A stretch of DNA of 24,656 nt from a virus. The translations under genes and the position numbers were made by a program. Below are positions 15,873-24,591 of the stretch, one piece after another. Numbering within the stretch: the first letter of the stretch is position 1; each line of letters starts with the position of its first letter. Below the pieces are notes generated by a model, which was not told the origin of the DNA, ran no database searches, and saw only the letters and a list, made by a program, of their open reading frames with translations. The stretch spans positions 1 through 24,656 of the IMG/VR virus record IMGVR_UViG_3300044994_000560, one strand, 5' to 3'.

Positions 15873-15907
15873 TATGGTCTATCGTCTGTGATCCTCTGTC
15901 TATTTTC
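15873..15907. repeat. 7-bp repeat array, second family
   Basis: Units TATGGTC, TATCGTC, TGTGATC, CTCTGTC, TATTTTC. The array runs up to the TAG stop (15907-15909) of the glycosidase-like gene. Confidence 0.5.
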
Positions 15908-16914
15908 TATTTAACAGTTATGGCATTATATACATTGGTATTGCCTCCCGGCTTTTCTTCGCCTGTAAGCCGCCAGCGAAAGGCCATGTCAAAGTATTTT
16001 GGCAGTATGGTGTCTATTGAGCTTACATACAGCTCCCAGGCTTGCATATCTACACCCTGCATGCCTTTGCTTTCATGCTGCCACCAATATTCTGTCATAA
16101 CTTTCGGCACTGATGGTGCTACCTGACGCCCAAGCTTTGTACGAAGATTCATTTCGATATCTGCTACAGATCTGAATGAGCCCTGCTGATAAAGCTGAAA
16201 TGCAAAGTAATCGACATGGCTCCGGAGTGCTGTAAGGATGATAGTGTTCCAATCGATATATGCAGCATTCTCTTCCTCGGCCATAATAGCTGCAATGGGA
16301 GCATTGCGCTCTATCCGGCGGATGTCGTCAATATATTCTAGGCTAAGCTTCACATACTCTCTCGCTGCAATGTCATAAAGCTGTTTGGCTGATTGTCTGT
16401 TGCGATTGGTGATGTTGACCATCCTGGTAAGGACATTGGTAGGATTATAACTGGATCCAACTCTGAACTTTGTACCTACCACCAGCTCATTCATGTAGAG
16501 TTCATTTCCCAACTGTATGAGGGCAATGGGTACGTTGTTGGCTTTCAGGATTCGAAGGAGGCGAAGATTGTTATCGCGCCAGTTTACAAGTTCGGCTCCT
16601 TTGCCCGGTGTTTTTACGCCCATGCGCATCATCATCTCATAATCGAGTGTGAAGCTGATAGCTGCATGGCTACCTGTTCGCAGGCATAATTCGGCAAACT
16701 CCTCTGCAAAGGTGTATGGGTTGGTCAGGAAAGGGTCGTTATTAGCGAGGTTGCTGAGTTCACCTGCCTGTGTTTGCCCACCTGGAAACCTAAGAACAGG
16801 TGGGTGCAAAAAGTCTGCTGTAAGCTCATTATAGGCCCTTTCGAACTGCAATACACGATGTGGATAGGCTGCTACTTCCGGGAAATATGCGGTGATGTTA
16901 AATCCTTTTTTCAT
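15907..16914 (-). CDS. Predicted intracellular glycoside hydrolase, clan GH-A-like
   Basis: This 335-residue protein reads like a retaining glycosidase with a TIM barrel of clan GH-A. It has LRFPGGQTQ (41-49), ALIQLGNELYMNEL (131-144) with the Gly-Asn-Glu motif whose Glu138 would be the acid/base, and VPKVMTEYWW (269-278) whose Glu275 would be the nucleophile; the spacing of 137 residues suits the clan. FPGG plus GNE is reminiscent of GH79, GH39 or GH51-type enzymes; I cannot name the family. There is no signal peptide, so it should act in the cytoplasm or leave only at lysis. It sits between DUF3164 and DUF4406 in the early operon, far from the tail genes, an unusual place for a carbohydrate enzyme. 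It has the same style of A-rich leader as its neighbours. Confidence 0.6.
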   Translation of the reverse strand: MKKGFNITAYFPEVAAYPHRVLQFERAYNELTADFLHPPVLRFPGGQTQAGELSNLANNDPFLTNPYTFAEEFAELCLRTGSHAAISFTLDYEMMMRMGVKTPGKGAELVNWRDNNLRLLRILKANNVPIALIQLGNELYMNELVVGTKFRVGSSYNPTNVLTRMVNITNRNRQSAKQLYDIAAREYVKLSLEYIDDIRRIERNAPIAAIMAEEENAAYIDWNTIILTALRSHVDYFAFQLYQQGSFRSVADIEMNLRTKLGRQVAPSVPKVMTEYWWQHESKGMQGVDMQAWELYVSSIDTILPKYFDMAFRWRLTGEEKPGGNTNVYNAITVK

Positions 16915-18071: not shown

Positions 18072-18683
18072 CTATTCAGTTCCCCAGTATTCGATGGCTT
18101 TTTCAGGCCAGATATCGAAGTATCCGCCCGGGTTGTAGCGACCCATACTGATGGCTCTGTAGCCTTGTATGTGCAGCTTCAGGTCGGCATCGAAACGGAT
18201 GGCTTTGCACGGTCTTCCTTCGGGGCTGCTGCCTTGGGCGTGGCTGATGATGATGAACAGCTTTTCGGGAAATTCTTTCTTCAGCAGCAGGTAGTCTTTG
18301 TAGCTCATCTGGGTGTACTGCCAGCTATCAATGAAGATGTATTTGGGTGCACGCTTCTTGCGGAGGCGCATTTTCAGCTCTTCTATCTCTTCGCAGCCTA
18401 TGAGGATGTTGGCGCTATGCTCATGAAGTTGGAACCGCTGTACCTGTTCTTTCATAGTCATGCGGGCGCCTTCTTCGAGGGAGTTATAAAAACAGGGCCC
18501 CAGTGTGGCCAGCTCTTTGAGGAGCTGCATGCAAAAGGAGGTTTTGCCGTTGCCGGATAATCCCCAGATGAAAAAAACGCCGCTGTTTTCGGGGTTTCCG
18601 AAAGCTTGCTGCCAGCGTTCTGACCATTGGATGATATCGTACTTCTTTTGCATGATTTGGGTAGGGTTATAGGCTCGCTCCAT
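18072..18683 (-). CDS. Second P-loop ATPase, RecA/DnaB-like
   Basis: This 203-residue protein has a clear Walker A (GLSGNGKTS, 41-49) and Walker B (KYIFIDS, 114-120). It also has IIISHAQGS (144-152), resembling the segment after Walker B in RecA, RadA and DnaB-type ATPases, and a closing DADLKLHIQGYRAISMGRYN region. It lacks an N-terminal DNA-binding domain. It overlaps the end of the MuB-like gene by 17 nt, so the two are linked in translation and probably in function. Possible roles are target or replication-fork remodelling after strand transfer, or helicase loading. In Mu only one ATPase (B) serves this stage. Confidence 0.7.
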   Translation of the reverse strand: MERAYNPTQIMQKKYDIIQWSERWQQAFGNPENSGVFFIWGLSGNGKTSFCMQLLKELATLGPCFYNSLEEGARMTMKEQVQRFQLHEHSANILIGCEEIEELKMRLRKKRAPKYIFIDSWQYTQMSYKDYLLLKKEFPEKLFIIISHAQGSSPEGRPCKAIRFDADLKLHIQGYRAISMGRYNPGGYFDIWPEKAIEYWGTE

Positions 18684-19605
18684 TTTGTTCAGGGTTGTAT
18701 CCGAGCTTTGTTGAGGAAAGGATCAGTAGTGATTCAGCCCGGCGAAGGCCTCCTATTTCTCCGTTGGCATCGGTGAGGAGACATTTTTTTACCAGCTCGG
18801 GGAGGCGGCTTTTGTCGTCCATGTTGTGCTCGAGCACATCGCTGATGAGCTTGCGGTAGAAACTGATGCGCTCATTGCGGTCGGTAGGTATGATCTTCAT
18901 ATACCGGTCGCTGTACCGGCTGAATATTTCGCGGAAGCCGGTCTTTTTGGCACGTATGCCGTTGGTGATGAAGGTGCGCAGGCCATCGGCTCCGATGAGG
19001 TACCAGCCGCAGTGGTTTTCGGTGGCGTTCCACAGTTCTTTGAGTTCGAGAAAGGCGCGGTAGTTGAGGTCACCGGCTTCATCTACTATCACTATGGGGT
19101 GGTCGAGGATGGTGAGGCAGTATTTGATATCGGCTTTGATATCGGCATAGCGTTGGTTATTGTCCACACCCAGGGCTTTGGCTATTGCTCTGATAAAAAG
19201 TTGCTGTGTTTTAGCTTGTGAGGCATCAATGTAGAAGCAGTTCCTGAGTGTTTTGCTGAGGTATTTGGCAGCATATGTCTTGCCAATGGCACAGTCATCT
19301 ACGAGTATCATGCCTTTGGCGTTCTGCTGGCAGAACTGCACATCGCTTGCTATGGCTTCAAAGACTTCGGTACGCACCATGTTCCAGCGGCGGGCATGGA
19401 GGGTGATGTTGAGCTCGCGCCCTAATGAGATCCACTGTGCATCTTTGATGAGCGAGTCGCCTACTCCGGCGGTTTTGAGCCTCGAAAACACTGATGGGTT
19501 GATGTTGTATGATTTGGCAAAGGCGCTGTCGGTGCCTCCAAAGTTGGCACGCACCTTCAGCAGTGCTGCCAGTACTTGTTCTTTGAATTGCGGTGTTATT
19601 TGCAT
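18667..19605 (-). CDS. MuB-like transposition ATPase
   Basis: This 312-residue AAA+ protein has an N-terminal helix-turn-helix (about 20-50: GGTDSAFAKSYNINPSVFSR), a Walker A variant DDCAIGKT (103-110), Walker B IVIVDEAG (171-178), and a C-terminal helical part ending in a basic tail. MuB binds DNA non-specifically, delivers target DNA to the transposase and prevents self-insertion. It lies directly after the transposase gene in the Mu order A-B. The first Gly of the canonical Walker A is replaced by Asp, while the GKT is intact. Start 19605 has a TTTTAAAACAATATCACC leader. Confidence 0.85.
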   Translation of the reverse strand: MQITPQFKEQVLAALLKVRANFGGTDSAFAKSYNINPSVFSRLKTAGVGDSLIKDAQWISLGRELNITLHARRWNMVRTEVFEAIASDVQFCQQNAKGMILVDDCAIGKTYAAKYLSKTLRNCFYIDASQAKTQQLFIRAIAKALGVDNNQRYADIKADIKYCLTILDHPIVIVDEAGDLNYRAFLELKELWNATENHCGWYLIGADGLRTFITNGIRAKKTGFREIFSRYSDRYMKIIPTDRNERISFYRKLISDVLEHNMDDKSRLPELVKKCLLTDANGEIGGLRRAESLLILSSTKLGYNPEQNGASL

Positions 19606-19617
19606 GGTGATATTGTT

Positions 19618-21723
19618 TTAAAATCTTGATGCCGTGGATGTGGAGTATGCCTGCCTGCCGGAGGAAGGGGTGTTGTACCCGGGGGGTTCGATGGGTTCAG
19701 GGATGACCATAGAAGACTGACGCTCGTCTTGGCTCTTGGTTCCCGGCTCCTGGTTCCTGGCTCCAGGCTTCCTGATCGTGAATGTTTTGGGCTTTTCTTC
19801 TGCTGCTACTTCAAATATTTCTACGCGCTCAATAGAATGTCTGCCTGTCTTGATGAAGCCATCTACGGTAGCTTGGTATCTTGACATGAGTGCTCGGTTG
19901 TCATCATCTGCAGCGGTTCTTTCCAGCGATGATCTGTTGTATTTCAGATCGCCGAGCAGTTCGCATACTATAGCGCCATTGTGTACCAGTACTGCTTTAA
20001 GAACATTTCCATCGTTGTCATCGAGCCAATAACAATCCAAAGTTTTGCCTTCTACTTTCTTCAAAATCTGAATGAGCGTATCGCCTGTAGCAACACAGCC
20101 GTTCAGCCCCAGTACACGTTCCCGGTACTGGAGCTTCGCACGGCCTGCATTTACTGATGTGGGTGTACGGTGGCCTATGAATGGCAGTATGCCGTACCAG
20201 TTAATGGGTTTCAGATCGGGGTGCTGATTGGTTATCCAAACCTCCCAGCGCGTCATACCCGGGTATTTGTTCTGATCAGGATGAAGCGTGTTATTCCAGG
20301 TCTCGATGTCTTCATGCGCATTGTCAATGATAATGTCGGCAGGGATTTGCACTTTTTTGGCCACCCTGGCCTGATTACTCTCGCTGATGGCGAAGGGTCG
20401 GGCGAGCCATCCCTCGCGTTTCTTTTCAATGTTGTAGCGCAAATCGCGATAGAAGCGCTCTATGCGTTTGCCCCTGGCGTTATTGGCTTCAATGCGTACG
20501 GCAGAGAACATTACGCCAGGCGTGAGAAAGGTGCCCATGTATGAGGAATTGAGCGACATCTCTGCTTCCAGTTCTGCGGGCATATTGAAGCCCCATTCGG
20601 CAATGTTGCGGACAAGCTGGCGGTAAAACTCCAGTATGATCCCTTCTTTAGTGTCGCCGTATGTCCAGGCTATAAAAGCCTGAGAATGCAGATCAATGCC
20701 ATTATAGAACCATACCCTTTTTCCGCTGGTGCTTTCAAATGGCGGCTGACGGTCGTCGACAGATATCATCGATCCGCTGAAGTTGGGTGCCATTAGTTTG
20801 TGGTATGGCACATATTTGCTCTTATACTTTTGGTTATCGTCAGTCCGGAGACGTTCGTTGATGATTCTGTTTTCCCATTGTTGCAGGTAGTTGTACACCG
20901 AGGCCTCGCTGATGGGTGCGAATAGTTCGTTGTTTGGGTTGTAAACCTCACCGGTTTCAGAATTGACGATCTCAATCTTTCCCTGCAGGAACTGATCATA
21001 CCGGTGGGCAATTTCCAGATAAGTGGGTTTATGCCTTTGTGTGGCAAACATGTCGTTCCACAGCTTGACCATGAGGTCTGTCACTTTCTGGGCGTTGCTG
21101 TTGCCAAATTTTTCAGAAATGAGTGCTGCATAGCCCAGCTTGTGAAACTCATTCATCTTTTCGCGCAACCGGCGTTCATTTGTCGGCAGGTCGTGTTTAA
21201 CCTGATAGTTTCGCAAGAGGTAGTCGTTGAAATGATGAACATCAGCAACAACAGAAGACCAAACACCTCGGACGCTTCCTCCCATGCGGCGGTGCATGGC
21301 TTCGCGTTGGGTAAATAGTGATTTAGCAGCAGCCAATACCGAGGCATTGACCGTATAAACTACGCGGTACTTGGCTTCGAGATAATTACCGGTGGGGAGC
21401 TGGTAATTGTCGAAAAAAGTCCGTGCAGCCGCGTCCATGGTGAAGTGGTCTTCCAAAGGGTTACGCGAAGCCGTGGGTGCGCCAAAACGGGCGATTATAT
21501 TATGCTGCCATTTTGCAGGCAGTGAGGCAAATTCAATGAGTGAATTGCGGCCATTGCCGCCTTTTTGAAGGAGATTGCCGGTTCTGGACCACTTATCCCA
21601 AAGCGATTGTGAAACTATACCGGAGGCGCTGCGCTCTTTAACCAGCACATCGGCTCTTACGCACAATATGTTGTCTTTGTAGGCAAAGGGCGAGGTGGGC
21701 GATAGTTGCATGGGCGCGGTCAT
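19618..21723 (-). CDS. MuA-like DDE transposase
   Basis: This is a 701-residue protein. The N-terminal Mu-type DNA-binding domain runs to about residue 80 (VSQSLWDKWSRTGNLLQKGG). Two further helical domains follow. A catalytic core runs from about 310: MISVDDRQPP (Asp323/324), AEMSLNSSYMGTF (386-399), and IEANNARGKRIERFY (411-425, Glu412 or Glu422). The beta-barrel and C-terminal parts follow. It cuts and joins the prophage ends in replicative transposition. The second acidic residue appears to be Glu (386 or 388) rather than Asp. Residues 652-667 are encoded by a degenerate heptad array; the rest of the C-terminus is Pro/Ser-rich, whereas MuA ends in a domain that contacts B and ClpX. The start lies 10 nt after repeat R1. 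Confidence 0.9.
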   Translation of the reverse strand: MTAPMQLSPTSPFAYKDNILCVRADVLVKERSASGIVSQSLWDKWSRTGNLLQKGGNGRNSLIEFASLPAKWQHNIIARFGAPTASRNPLEDHFTMDAAARTFFDNYQLPTGNYLEAKYRVVYTVNASVLAAAKSLFTQREAMHRRMGGSVRGVWSSVVADVHHFNDYLLRNYQVKHDLPTNERRLREKMNEFHKLGYAALISEKFGNSNAQKVTDLMVKLWNDMFATQRHKPTYLEIAHRYDQFLQGKIEIVNSETGEVYNPNNELFAPISEASVYNYLQQWENRIINERLRTDDNQKYKSKYVPYHKLMAPNFSGSMISVDDRQPPFESTSGKRVWFYNGIDLHSQAFIAWTYGDTKEGIILEFYRQLVRNIAEWGFNMPAELEAEMSLNSSYMGTFLTPGVMFSAVRIEANNARGKRIERFYRDLRYNIEKKREGWLARPFAISESNQARVAKKVQIPADIIIDNAHEDIETWNNTLHPDQNKYPGMTRWEVWITNQHPDLKPINWYGILPFIGHRTPTSVNAGRAKLQYRERVLGLNGCVATGDTLIQILKKVEGKTLDCYWLDDNDGNVLKAVLVHNGAIVCELLGDLKYNRSSLERTAADDDNRALMSRYQATVDGFIKTGRHSIERVEIFEVAAEEKPKTFTIRKPGARNQEPGTKSQDERQSSMVIPEPIEPPGYNTPSSGRQAYSTSTASRF
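19728..19769 (-). repeat. Degenerate heptad array inside the transposase C-terminus
   Basis: CTTGGCT, CTTGGTT, CCCGGCT, CCTGGTT, CCTGGCT, CCAGGCT: two good units and four drifted ones. Read in the transposase frame it gives GARNQEPGTKSQDE. Confidence 0.7.
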
Positions 21724-21732
21724 TGGGATGAT

Positions 21733-21763
21733 TGGTTATATTTGGGAAAATCTCACCTGTATG
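21733..21763. repeat. R1 direct repeat, copy 1 (31 bp, before the transposase)
   Basis: Identical over 31 bp to 22242-22272, beginning TGGTTATATTTGGG and ending CACCTGTATG. In the operon direction it sits 10 bp before the transposase ATG. In the other direction it contains an exact -7 consensus (TATATTTG) 17 bp before an ATG. Confidence 0.85.
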
Positions 21764-21797
21764 TTTGGAAAAGCTAATGAGGAAGTAGTAGCCATCA

Positions 21798-22214
21798 TTA
21801 TTGGCAATTTGAAGCTGACAAATCAGTTTCTTTATGAGGTGCTGACTGATGAGCAGAAGGCTCTTTACAGAGAGCGTTTACAACGCTTGAAAGAGCATCA
21901 TGTATCTTCTGATCTAAGTCAGAAGATGTTTGATTTACTCTTTCAAGAGCAGCAGTAAGCTCTTCCGCCGATAGCTCTCGACAACCATTTGTCTGGATTG
22001 TAATGTTGACATCCTTGGCTATAGCGTCAATGTTGAAGACTACTGTTTTTTGAAGGTTGGGCAGTTGGCTGATAATCTCCAGCAGGTGCTGACGTTCTGC
22101 AATCAGGTTTATTACTGCCGTTTCACTTTGAACACTCAAAGGGAAGCGGTTTGCCGCCTTTTCGATGGCATCAGCCACCTGTAGCAGATACTGGGCGAGT
22201 TGTTCTGTATTCAT
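21798..22214 (-). CDS. Cassette ORF 2, unknown early protein
   Basis: This 138-residue protein is helical: MNTEQLAQYLLQVADAIEKA, then FPLSVQSETAVINLIAERQH with LLEIISQL, a short beta part (TVVFNIDAIAKDVNITIQTN), and a polar, less ordered tail. It is flanked by repeat R2 at its start and by R1 after its end, exactly like the next gene upstream, yet the proteins look unrelated. An antisense ORF (21761-21958, plus) overlaps its last third; I prefer this strand because of operon direction and the repeated start context. No family was recognised; a role in transposition control is possible because of the position just before the transposase. Confidence 0.55.
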   Translation of the reverse strand: MNTEQLAQYLLQVADAIEKAANRFPLSVQSETAVINLIAERQHLLEIISQLPNLQKTVVFNIDAIAKDVNITIQTNGCRELSAEELTAALERVNQTSSDLDQKIHDALSSVVNALCKEPSAHQSAPHKETDLSASNCQ

Positions 22215-22237
22215 GATTTTATGGATTGACGGGTGAT
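22211..22237. repeat. R2 direct repeat, copy 1 (27 bp, start of cassette ORF 2)
   Basis: Matches 22798-22824 at 26 of 27 positions (TCATGAT, one variable base, then TTATGGATTGACGGGTGAT). It includes the ATG and the leader of the minus-strand gene starting at 22214. Confidence 0.85.
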
Positions 22238-22241
22238 AGAA

Positions 22242-22272
22242 TGGTTATATTTGGGAAAATCTCACCTGTATG
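22242..22272. repeat. R1 direct repeat, copy 2
   Basis: Perfect 31-bp copy of 21733-21763, 4 bp from R2 copy 1. It follows the end of cassette ORF 1 and precedes the start of cassette ORF 2. Confidence 0.85.
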
Positions 22273-22294
22273 AATAAGCCCGAATGGACCATCC

Positions 22295-22801
22295 TTATAA
22301 GTTTTCTGATAGTGGATTGGTCAAAGAATCACCGGATGGATCATTTTGACTGGAGCAAACAGTCGAAAGCTTTCCAGCATCTTGGAGCGCAGTTGCTACA
22401 TCTGCTTGAAGCGGTTCCGGGAACTCAAGTAAGATGCTCACCCTACTTCCACAATAGTGGAACTGAAAGCGAAGTGTGTGCGCATCCTGCACACAGCATT
22501 CATGTGTTATGCGATGTATCTCATTATGACGAAGTGATACGGTACCACAACCTTTATCAGGCAATTGCACATTTACATTACGAACGCCTAATGTCTTTTC
22601 AATTTCGCTTAAAACAATACGATCCTCAGGCTCGATATCGGCTGGAGCTTCGATGGTGATTCTGGTTCTTACCTTTTCTGGAAGCGCCATCCGAGGTAGT
22701 AGATCTGAATGATGCCTGATAGATCTGTAATTGGCCTCTATCTTTTGGGCGTGGCTGCTTTCAAAAGACGGCTCTGTCTTTGATTTGATTGCACTTGTCA
22801 T
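22295..22801 (-). CDS. Cassette ORF 1, unknown early protein
   Basis: This is a 168-residue protein. The middle part (KVRTRITIEAPADIEPEDRI, SEIEKTLGVRNVNVQLPDKG) has a folded alpha/beta character; the ends are polar. There are several Cys and His residues (HECCVQDAHTLRFQFHYCGS), perhaps a metal site. It starts within R2 copy 2 and is followed by R1 copy 2. It is the second gene of the early operon, after the Ner-like gene, with which it nearly overlaps. The antisense 22270-22659 ORF is likely a shadow. No family was recognised. Confidence 0.55.
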   Translation of the reverse strand: MTSAIKSKTEPSFESSHAQKIEANYRSIRHHSDLLPRMALPEKVRTRITIEAPADIEPEDRIVLSEIEKTLGVRNVNVQLPDKGCGTVSLRHNEIHRITHECCVQDAHTLRFQFHYCGSRVSILLEFPEPLQADVATALQDAGKLSTVCSSQNDPSGDSLTNPLSENL

Positions 22802-22824
22802 GATGTTATGGATTGACGGGTGAT
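22798..22824. repeat. R2 direct repeat, copy 2
   Basis: Second copy of the 27-bp R2 element. It holds the ATG of the gene starting at 22801 and also the TAA stop of the Ner-like gene (22806-22808). Confidence 0.85.
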
Positions 22825-23033
22825 GAATCTTTATGAAAAGAAGTTTTAAGCGCTGCCAGATGTTCCTTCAGCTGTGCAGCAGCGGCTTTGATGAGCTTTG
22901 CCTTCCGGCCATTGTGTTTATCCGGGTCATTGAGCACTTTCGATACATAGTATTGGTCACTGCCTACTATTTCAGCTACCTGCCTGCCAAAGCCGCGCTG
23001 CAAAGTTTTACGCCTGTTTACTGAGATTGTCAT
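22806..23033 (-). CDS. Ner/Cro-like small HTH regulator
   Basis: This 75-residue basic protein reads MTISVNRRKTLQRGFGRQVA, then EIVGSDQYYVSKVLNDPDKH and GRKAKLIKAAAAQLKEHLAA. The helix-turn-helix spans about 15-40, with recognition-helix-like YYVSKVLND. As the first gene of the early operon, divergent from the repressor, it is in the position of Mu ner (or lambda cro), which lowers both early and repressor transcription. Transcription would begin near 23050 from the promoter at 23056-23088. There is no C-terminal dimer domain. Confidence 0.75.
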   Translation of the reverse strand: MTISVNRRKTLQRGFGRQVAEIVGSDQYYVSKVLNDPDKHNGRKAKLIKAAAAQLKEHLAALKTSFHKDSSPVNP

Positions 23034-23055: not shown

Positions 23056-23088
23056 CAAGTATAGTTCAGGATTTCTGAACCTGCAACA
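23056..23088 (-). promoter_or_regulatory. Early promoter, Bacteroidota -33/-7 type
   Basis: On the minus strand TTG (23084-23086 complement) is followed after exactly 20 bp by TATACTTG (23056-23063 complement), one mismatch from TAnnTTTG. Spacing of 19-21 bp is normal for this class. The repressor operator lies between the two elements. Confidence 0.6.
23064..23080. promoter_or_regulatory. Repressor operator O1
   Basis: Perfect palindrome GTTCAG-GATTT-CTGAAC, 17 bp, between the -33 and -7 elements of the early promoter. A second TTCAG-N5-CTGAA site is inside the repressor gene. Binding here would block the early promoter. Confidence 0.65.
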
Positions 23089-23122: not shown

Positions 23123-23818
23123 ATGGAACCCAATACTACACCTGACAGCAAATTAGAAGTAAATGAAAGGTTCAAGCAAGTAGTTGAATACATGCTACTT
23201 GTAGATAAATCATTGAGCAAGACTTCTATTGCTCAACAATTTGGAATTAGCAAATCAAAACTTTCAGAAATTCTGAATAATCGGATGATGGCTGGCGTAG
23301 ATATGCTGAATAAACTAGTGCTATATTATAATGTCAACTCTCATTGGCTGCTCACTGGCGAGGGCAGCATGTTCCTAAAAGATGTACCGGCAGGGGTAGT
23401 ACAGCACACGGCGGCACCGGCGGCAGGCATACCGCTCATACCTATAGATGCACTGGCAGGGGTAGGCATGGGAGAGCTGGTAATCACCGAGCATGATATA
23501 GAGCAGCGCTATGTAGTGCCAGAGTTTGAAAAGGCCGAGTTTCTCATACGGGTAAAGGGCAGCAGCATGTACCCCAAGTACAATGCCGGCGACTTACTGG
23601 CGTGCCGCCGGGTAGCAAAGACCGATTTTATACAGTGGAACAAAACCTATGTGCTTGACACCACACAGGGCATTCTGGTGAAGCGCATCCTTAAGGGCAC
23701 TCACAACAATCACTGGATCCTTCGCAGTGACAATAAAGATTACTTAGACATAGACGTAGAGCCGGAGCAGCACGTCCACGGTATATCACTGGTGATAGGT
23801 GTAATTAGGTTGGAGTAG
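23123..23818 (+). CDS. LexA/CI-type prophage repressor, S24 peptidase
   Basis: This 231-residue protein has an XRE helix-turn-helix at about 30-60 (LSKTSIAQQFGISKSKLSEI), a YYNVNSHWLLTGEGSMF end of that domain, then a linker and an S24 domain. The self-cleavage site is Ala112-Gly113 (DALAGVGMGE); the Ser in KGSSMYPKYNAGD (Ser148) and Lys187 in ILVKRIL form the Ser-Lys pair. RecA-stimulated cleavage should inactivate it, so the prophage is probably induced by DNA damage; Mu's own repressor is of a different type. The HTH half is AT-rich and the S24 half markedly GC-richer, as if the domains had been exchanged. The gene is divergent from the Ner-like gene. Confidence 0.9.
   Translation: MEPNTTPDSKLEVNERFKQVVEYMLLVDKSLSKTSIAQQFGISKSKLSEILNNRMMAGVDMLNKLVLYYNVNSHWLLTGEGSMFLKDVPAGVVQHTAAPAAGIPLIPIDALAGVGMGELVITEHDIEQRYVVPEFEKAEFLIRVKGSSMYPKYNAGDLLACRRVAKTDFIQWNKTYVLDTTQGILVKRILKGTHNNHWILRSDNKDYLDIDVEPEQHVHGISLVIGVIRLE
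23263..23277. promoter_or_regulatory. Second operator-like palindrome inside the repressor gene
   Basis: TTCAG-AAATT-CTGAA, the same half-sites and spacing as O1, 140 bp into the repressor reading frame. It could give autoregulation or looping with O1. Confidence 0.5.
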
Positions 23819-24103: not shown

Positions 24104-24139
24104 GTATGCCCAACTGTATGCCCAACTGTACGCCCAACT
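24104..24139 (+). repeat. 12-bp tandem triplication
   Basis: GTATGCCCAACT, GTATGCCCAACT, GTACGCCCAACT in a row. The frames across it give short repetitive peptides and are not supported as genes. It could be an iteron-like site at the prophage end. Confidence 0.75.
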
Positions 24140-24591
24140 GCATTTTTATTGAAAATCCCGGACTAATGGAGTACTCGTAATCAGAATAATTGTGGGTTGT
24201 AAATAGCCGATTGCAATAGCTTACAGATAAATGAAAAACGCCCGTTTTACGGGTATTTAAAGGTGTTTTGGCCCTTTTGGGAGCCTTATGTATATTTAGA
24301 GGCATTAAAAGTCAGTTAAAGCCTATGTTTTCGGTCATAAGATGGCTATAAATGCACATTTGGTTTTCGATAGCAAATCTTTCCAAAGGCTTCTAAACCC
24401 TTTAAAATCGGGCTTTTTCGGCTTTTTTTGTTAATTATCTTTGGTACACTTCGTTTTTACCCCTATACAATTCAGGAAACTTTCCATTTTAACTTACCAT
24501 CTTGTGATGGAAGACATGAGTTTACGCAGAAATCGCAAAGGCTTAGTAGGCAAGATCCCAAAGACTTATGGAAGCTATGCTGATACTCCGT

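Follow-up and report, generated by a model that had tools for sequence, protein, structure and literature searches.

What occupies the interval between the ner-position gene and the transposase of a Mu-like phage, and why do near-identical repeats frame unrelated small genes there? The question is raised by an IMG/VR virus record, analysed here as one window of 24,656 nucleotides, which belongs to a Mu-like phage as judged by matches to MuA, a MuB-type ATPase, the Mu-type portal protein (Portal_Mu, E 1e-62) and an S24-type repressor. The relatives of this phage fall in Bacteroidota. Two cassettes, referred to as 1 and 2, occupy the interval from the ner-position gene to the MuA transposase (Table 1). 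Family libraries gave no significant match for the ner-position gene itself. Elsewhere in the early transposition region, a 335-aa protein encoded on the minus strand (15907-16914) has no Pfam match at E 0.01. We propose, with a probability of about 0.6, that the ner-transposase interval serves as an accessory slot in which two cassettes lie in tandem, each made of two convergent overlapping ORFs, and that the cassette borders are duplicated leaders. This proposal builds on the repeats, their fit to four start codons, the dual coding of cassette 2, the variability of the slot and the cassette array found in one relative.

Table 1. Position and strand of the features discussed, numbered along the window.
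Feature	Position	Strand	Remarks
MuB-type AAA transposition protein	18667..19605	-	phrog_296, E 1e-30; adjoins MuA; bait for close relatives
MuA-type transposase	19618..21723	-	phrog_310, E 3e-33
R1, transposase-side copy	21733..21763	+	holds TATATTTG at 21737-21744; last bases are the ATG of p65
p65, repressor-strand ORF	21761..21958	+	65 aa; gene-like codon usage
ORF138, transposase-strand ORF	21798..22214	-	codon usage gene-like in first 85 codons only
R2, junction copy	22211..22237	-	ectopic ner-tail codons and ORF138 start codon
Promoter-like TTG-N17-TATATTTG	22226..22253	+	made by R2-R1 junction; points at p129 and repressor
R1, copy at cassette junction	22242..22272	+	holds TATATTTG at 22246-22253; last bases are the ATG of p129
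p129, repressor-strand gene	22270..22659	+	41% identical to L169 homologue along 123 aa without gaps; ferredoxin-like fold predicted
ORF168, transposase-strand ORF	22295..22801	-	aa 43-133 match L169 at 32% (91 codons), gapless
R2, ner-end copy	22798..22824	-	final ner codons (SPVNP) with stop, and ORF168 start codon
ner-position small HTH-like gene	22806..23033	-	basis: position and sequence
Repressor, HTH and S24 peptidase domain	23123..23818	+	family matches; strand as p65 and p129

The original prediction placed two pairs of repeats at the edges of the cassettes, and this was borne out. The copies of R1 agree at 31/31 positions and those of R2 at 26/27, with AGAA (22238-22241) as the R1-R2 spacer at the inner junction. 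Scanning of both strands revealed no further copy of either repeat in the whole window, where the next-best match has 12/30 mismatches for R1 and 8/25 for R2; by simple counting, the chance of an exact 31-base repeat in 24.7 kb is about 1e-10. Inverted repeats involving R1 or R2 were not found. It was also correct that ORF138 and ORF168 are open and unrelated, the cassette interiors having no similarity in DNA or protein. The claim that R2 covers the starts of the cassette genes holds as well, but the reading of the cassettes on one strand does not, because the last bases of R1 are the ATG of an opposite-strand ORF, p65 or p129. In fact, there are two pairs of convergent, overlapping ORFs, and each of their four start codons coincides with one repeat copy, which indicates that each cassette consists of two convergent overlapping ORFs, each started at its own border. 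What had been overlooked is that the R2 copy next to ner encodes the ner tail and stop; the junction copy is thus an ectopic ner tail followed by a start codon. Since R2 contains the ner tail, the arrangement points to tandem duplication within the lineage, comparable to that seen in the relatives L250 and L212 (see below).

The coding capacity of both strands is best followed in cassette 2. The relative L169 contains a cassette that is homologous to it on both strands, and the alignments of p129 (123 codons) and ORF168 (91 codons) with their L169 counterparts have an identical DNA offset of 662; both frames are open and conserved on a single gapless DNA alignment. Identity between the window and L169 at the three codon positions is 0.52/0.61/0.57 inside the overlap and 0.62/0.66/0.35 outside it, the values for MuA being 0.57/0.63/0.34. 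Third-position identity of p129 reaches 0.574 inside the overlap versus 0.345 outside, and the maximum for ordinary genes of the two phages is 0.468 (168 windows of 94 codons). When synonymous codons were resampled with either strand held, the similarity of the other strand was reproduced in 0/1000 draws each way; since this redraw takes synonymous sites as saturated, the control with windows of ordinary genes is the fairer test. Recent transfer was rejected as the cause of this pattern, because it would lift all codon positions, whereas here protein identity is low and third-position identity high. A second pair, unrelated to cassette 2 and located in the same slot of two other relatives (L258 3622-4177 and L279 999-1593), has a third-position identity of 0.556 inside the overlap and 0.278 outside, with an ordinary-gene maximum of 0.511. 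On the comparative basis of these two sequence pairs, cassette 2 looks protein-coding on both strands. A third candidate pair, cassette 3 of L169 against L168 or L243, was not counted, as both strands are similar but the alignments are shifted.

It could be argued that each cassette codes on one strand only, cassette 2 for p129 and cassette 1 for ORF138 or p65, so that the ORFs facing them are chance openings and R1 and R2 are leaders or leftovers. Among the proteins modelled, p129 alone has a confident fold, and antisense ORFs arise easily: a leftward ORF of at least 58 aa is present at 11% of control positions inside MuA, and 6-20% of recoded versions leave the opposite frame of cassette 1 open. 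This possibility, which we judge unlikely while according it serious weight, is opposed by the other frame of cassette 2, kept in L169 at the same alignment with the third position raised only inside the overlap, and by the L258/L279 pair, which repeats the pattern. Leftward ORFs adjoining the transposase are only mildly enriched (16/78 versus 80/702 control positions).

The original prediction also missed that the better-supported protein of cassette 2, p129, lies opposite the transposase strand. It is considered better supported because its AlphaFold model reaches a pLDDT of 82 (pTM 0.75, beta-alpha-beta-beta-alpha-beta order), compared with a pLDDT of 38 and a fold without confidence for ORF168. 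Judging from these models, ORF168 may be the younger of the two, overprinted on p129. A fold search with p129 retrieved nothing beyond the widespread ferredoxin-like arrangement (best Z 8.9), which points to no function, and a p129 profile run on 395 genomes from the phylum, plus 6 others, found nothing, an empty answer that weighs little. Family libraries returned nothing significant for any of the four ORFs (p129, ORF168, p65 and ORF138); PHROG offered a weak match for ORF168, spanning 27 aa (E 0.0025), to an unknown family. Merging p129 with the L258/L279 family, and ORF168 with the partner of that family, was considered; profile comparison was unsupportive and no claim is made.

For cassette 1, homologue searches detected no homologue of ORF138 or p65, and the available evidence is codon usage. 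In bits per codon, the first 85 codons of ORF138 score 0.157, p65 scores 0.127 and the overlapping part of ORF138 scores -0.05, on a scale where ordinary genes range over 0.05-0.36 and antisense frames average -0.09 to -0.37. Inside the overlap, codon use is gene-like on the p65 strand only. Cassette 1 would then consist of two partly overlapping genes, a reading still unproven. From its sequence alone, p65 looks short and helical; a profile comparison gave no support for merging it with the helical family of L169 and L243, and no such claim is made.

Variation among relatives bears on whether the slot is exchangeable. Single-protein scans with ORF138, ORF168 and MuA revealed no close relative, and relatives were gathered by alignment of MuB (22 loci, 38-65% identity) and of MuA (about 80 loci, 41-50%). 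In 19 of the 36 relatives with both ends of the interval there is room for ner only (gap of 345 bp or less), and the rest hold extra genes; with a repressor-transposase gap of 1400 bp, the window belongs to the over-600 group of this census. Three cassettes stand in a row within the slot of L169 (MuB 61%), the middle one being the homologue of cassette 2, while L168 has one cassette and L209 none. The layout of L169 is that of the window, with a ner end corresponding to R2, inner junctions corresponding to R1 plus R2 and a transposase end corresponding to R1, but the letters differ. An exact repeat of 29 bases is common to its junctions, one of 16 bases reappears ahead of the transposase, and copies of its ner tail stand at two additional junctions. 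Because L169 shares cassette 2 and yet has its own border repeats, the borders belong to the phage and not to the cassette, and therefore they are not universal swap sites.

These observations divide the original prediction of an exchangeable slot, according to which R1 and R2 are common recombination borders through which cassettes are swapped among many phages. Its variable content stands, given that the number and identity of cassettes vary widely and that unrelated interiors lie between identical borders. Its conserved swap borders do not: the exact R1 and R2 sequences were not found in relatives, most of which have a slot without repeats, although the relatives compared are not close ones; the R1 core occurs only once elsewhere in viral_contigs, as a chance match inside an unrelated tail gene; and L169 carries cassette 2 between different borders. 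Swapping through borders common to many phages is thus quite improbable, though swapping within one lineage may occur.

A separate observation concerns the small proteins that transposase-strand ORFs encode immediately upstream of MuA in three relatives (L258:3622-4140, L169:1789-2064 and L168:201-506); these proteins carry a MuA-like segment, NNARGKRIExYxRxLRY..GWLARP. A profile of this segment, applied to 1135 frames, gave E-values of 7.5e-12 for L258, 1.7e-6 for L169 (cassette 3) and 4.4e-6 for L168. Such proteins may be MuA-derived competitors, mimics or regulators of the transposase, as far as their sequences suggest. ORF168 resembles the motif by eye, yet it was missed by the motif profile and is not included.

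The origin of the repeated borders can be approached through relatives with tandem copies. In L250 the slot copies are 96% identical in DNA, which we call a fresh duplication, and in L212 an older pair is 76% identical in DNA and 65% in protein, with an exact 26-bp border that starts in the ner tail. Such a graded series is what would be anticipated if an old duplication of one cassette had been followed by complete divergence of the interior, with the borders held under purifying selection. In the window, however, the interiors retain no residual similarity, the ferredoxin-like model of p129 differs from the short, helical p65, and L169 has one cassette in common while its others differ, which suggests acquisition or loss and not divergence alone; divergence from an old duplication is accordingly unlikely. 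In the accessory-slot reading that we favour, the slot would have undergone tandem duplication, which copied R1 and R2, and recombination with other phages would later have replaced the interior of a cassette, or the interior would have diverged beyond recognition. The complete difference in content between the copies may have arisen when recombination through the borders replaced an interior, or when unequal joining inserted a foreign cassette. Tandem paralogues of one small protein family, with the motif ALNEGWxPDW, are present in the ner-MuA slot of L250 (373-1377), L212 (2490-3199) and L210 (reverse strand, upstream of MuA), and stand at several stages of divergence.

What the borders might do is suggested by their content. 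R1 contains TATATTTG, which is the known -7 form of Bacteroidota promoters. At the inner junction, a TTG contributed by R2 lies 17 bases upstream of this element, generating the sole TTG-N17-22-TAnnTTTG site on the plus strand of the window. Among 16 leaders of leftward genes, 5 contain the -7 form where 1.3 would be expected (P=0.006). The N17 spacing is short, and the transposase-side copy of R1 has no -33 element at that distance, so that the support given to R1 by the promoter motif is modest. R2, in turn, places the transposase-strand start a few bases past a ner-type stop, as is likewise the case in many relatives. R1 may therefore be viewed as a putative promoter and start leader, and R2 as a putative start leader coupled to the end of ner: the transposase-strand ORF would start just past the ner stop or its duplicated copy, and the repressor-strand ORF at R1. 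This fits a second option of the original prediction, namely that the repeats are kept as regulatory elements.

Two further repeat families occur in the window. The near-palindromic pair TTCAGgAtTTCTGAA / TTCAGaAaTTCTGAA, at 23065-23079 and 23263-23277, is placed beside and inside the repressor gene and represents candidate repressor operators. Near the left end, a 12-bp direct repeat, GTATGCCCAACT, occurs three times (24104-24143), and comparable triples of 12 bp are located upstream of the repressor gene in L178, L179, L182, L185, L186 and L189; the window repeats may bind the transposase or may be a repeat within a coding frame. It has also been considered that R1 and R2 are themselves operators or transposition enhancer sites for a phage protein, the genes between them being incidental. 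Their phage-specific sequences in the window and in L169 would be expected if they co-evolved with a phage regulator. Nevertheless, R1 and R2 end exactly on start codons, are unlike the TTCAG-type palindromic pair near the repressor and have no counterpart among the slots of most relatives, which makes an operator role highly doubtful.

The layout of the cassettes finds a parallel in the ner - gene 10 / olg1 (sie1) module of the B3-like Pseudomonas phages Fc02 and Ps56, located at the same transposable-phage locus (PMC9936078). In Fc02, gene 10 follows ner and is overlapped in antisense by olg1 on the repressor strand, and these antisense overlapping genes of the ner-adjacent locus give superinfection exclusion (PMC9936078). 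Like that module, the window has a gene right after ner that is overlapped in antisense by a repressor-strand ORF, and its repressor-strand ORFs lie upstream of the repressor in the same direction. Unlike it, the unit of the window is tandem and has repeated borders, and the likeness rests on layout, p129 having no homologue in 50,697 phage records. An Fc02-type module would have a distal promoter for the repressor-strand transcript; in the window, the predicted TTG-N17-TATATTTG at the R2-R1 junction is the candidate for it (motif P=0.006). By analogy, the repressor-strand proteins would be made in the lysogen together with the repressor, the transposase-strand proteins would be made early in lytic growth, and the cassette proteins would act in phage-phage competition, for example in superinfection exclusion. 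On this analogy, phage competition would be the most likely use of the cassettes, at odds well short of even.

Other systems share part of these features. The plasticity regions and morons of Mu-like phages, as described in the available part of PMC4378225, also place small ORFs of unknown function, from zero to several, in fixed slots between conserved genes; unlike the morons described there, the window has repeated, phage-specific borders for each unit and two-strand coding. A long opposite-strand coding overlap likens the cassettes to experimentally supported bacterial antisense overlapping genes, such as those of E. coli EDL933 (PMC9927249); in contrast to these, dual coding is supported here by comparison of two independent homologous pairs, and the unit lies in a repeated phage cassette. 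Integron gene cassettes are also tandem small genes parted by a repeated junction. Unlike them, the window has R1 and R2 without an attC-like inverted repeat, and R2 originates as a copy of the ner tail. Among the ORFs of the window, an integron integrase was not noticed.

To our knowledge, demonstrations of long opposite-strand protein-coding overlaps are rare for prokaryotes and their phages. Within this phage group, one slot supplies comparative evidence for opposite-strand coding from two gene pairs that are unrelated to each other. It is conceivable, with a chance somewhat below even, that the slot is an array of two-strand cassettes, each flanked by opposed start and promoter borders, in which one strand would be lysogenic and the other lytic, the borders being kept alike within a phage while the contents turn over. 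If the opposite-strand reading is right, the ner-transposase interval of transposable phages would be a good hunting place for new phage-competition genes missed by one-strand annotation, and the slot would offer a natural system in which to study the origin of overlapping genes and their spread as whole units.
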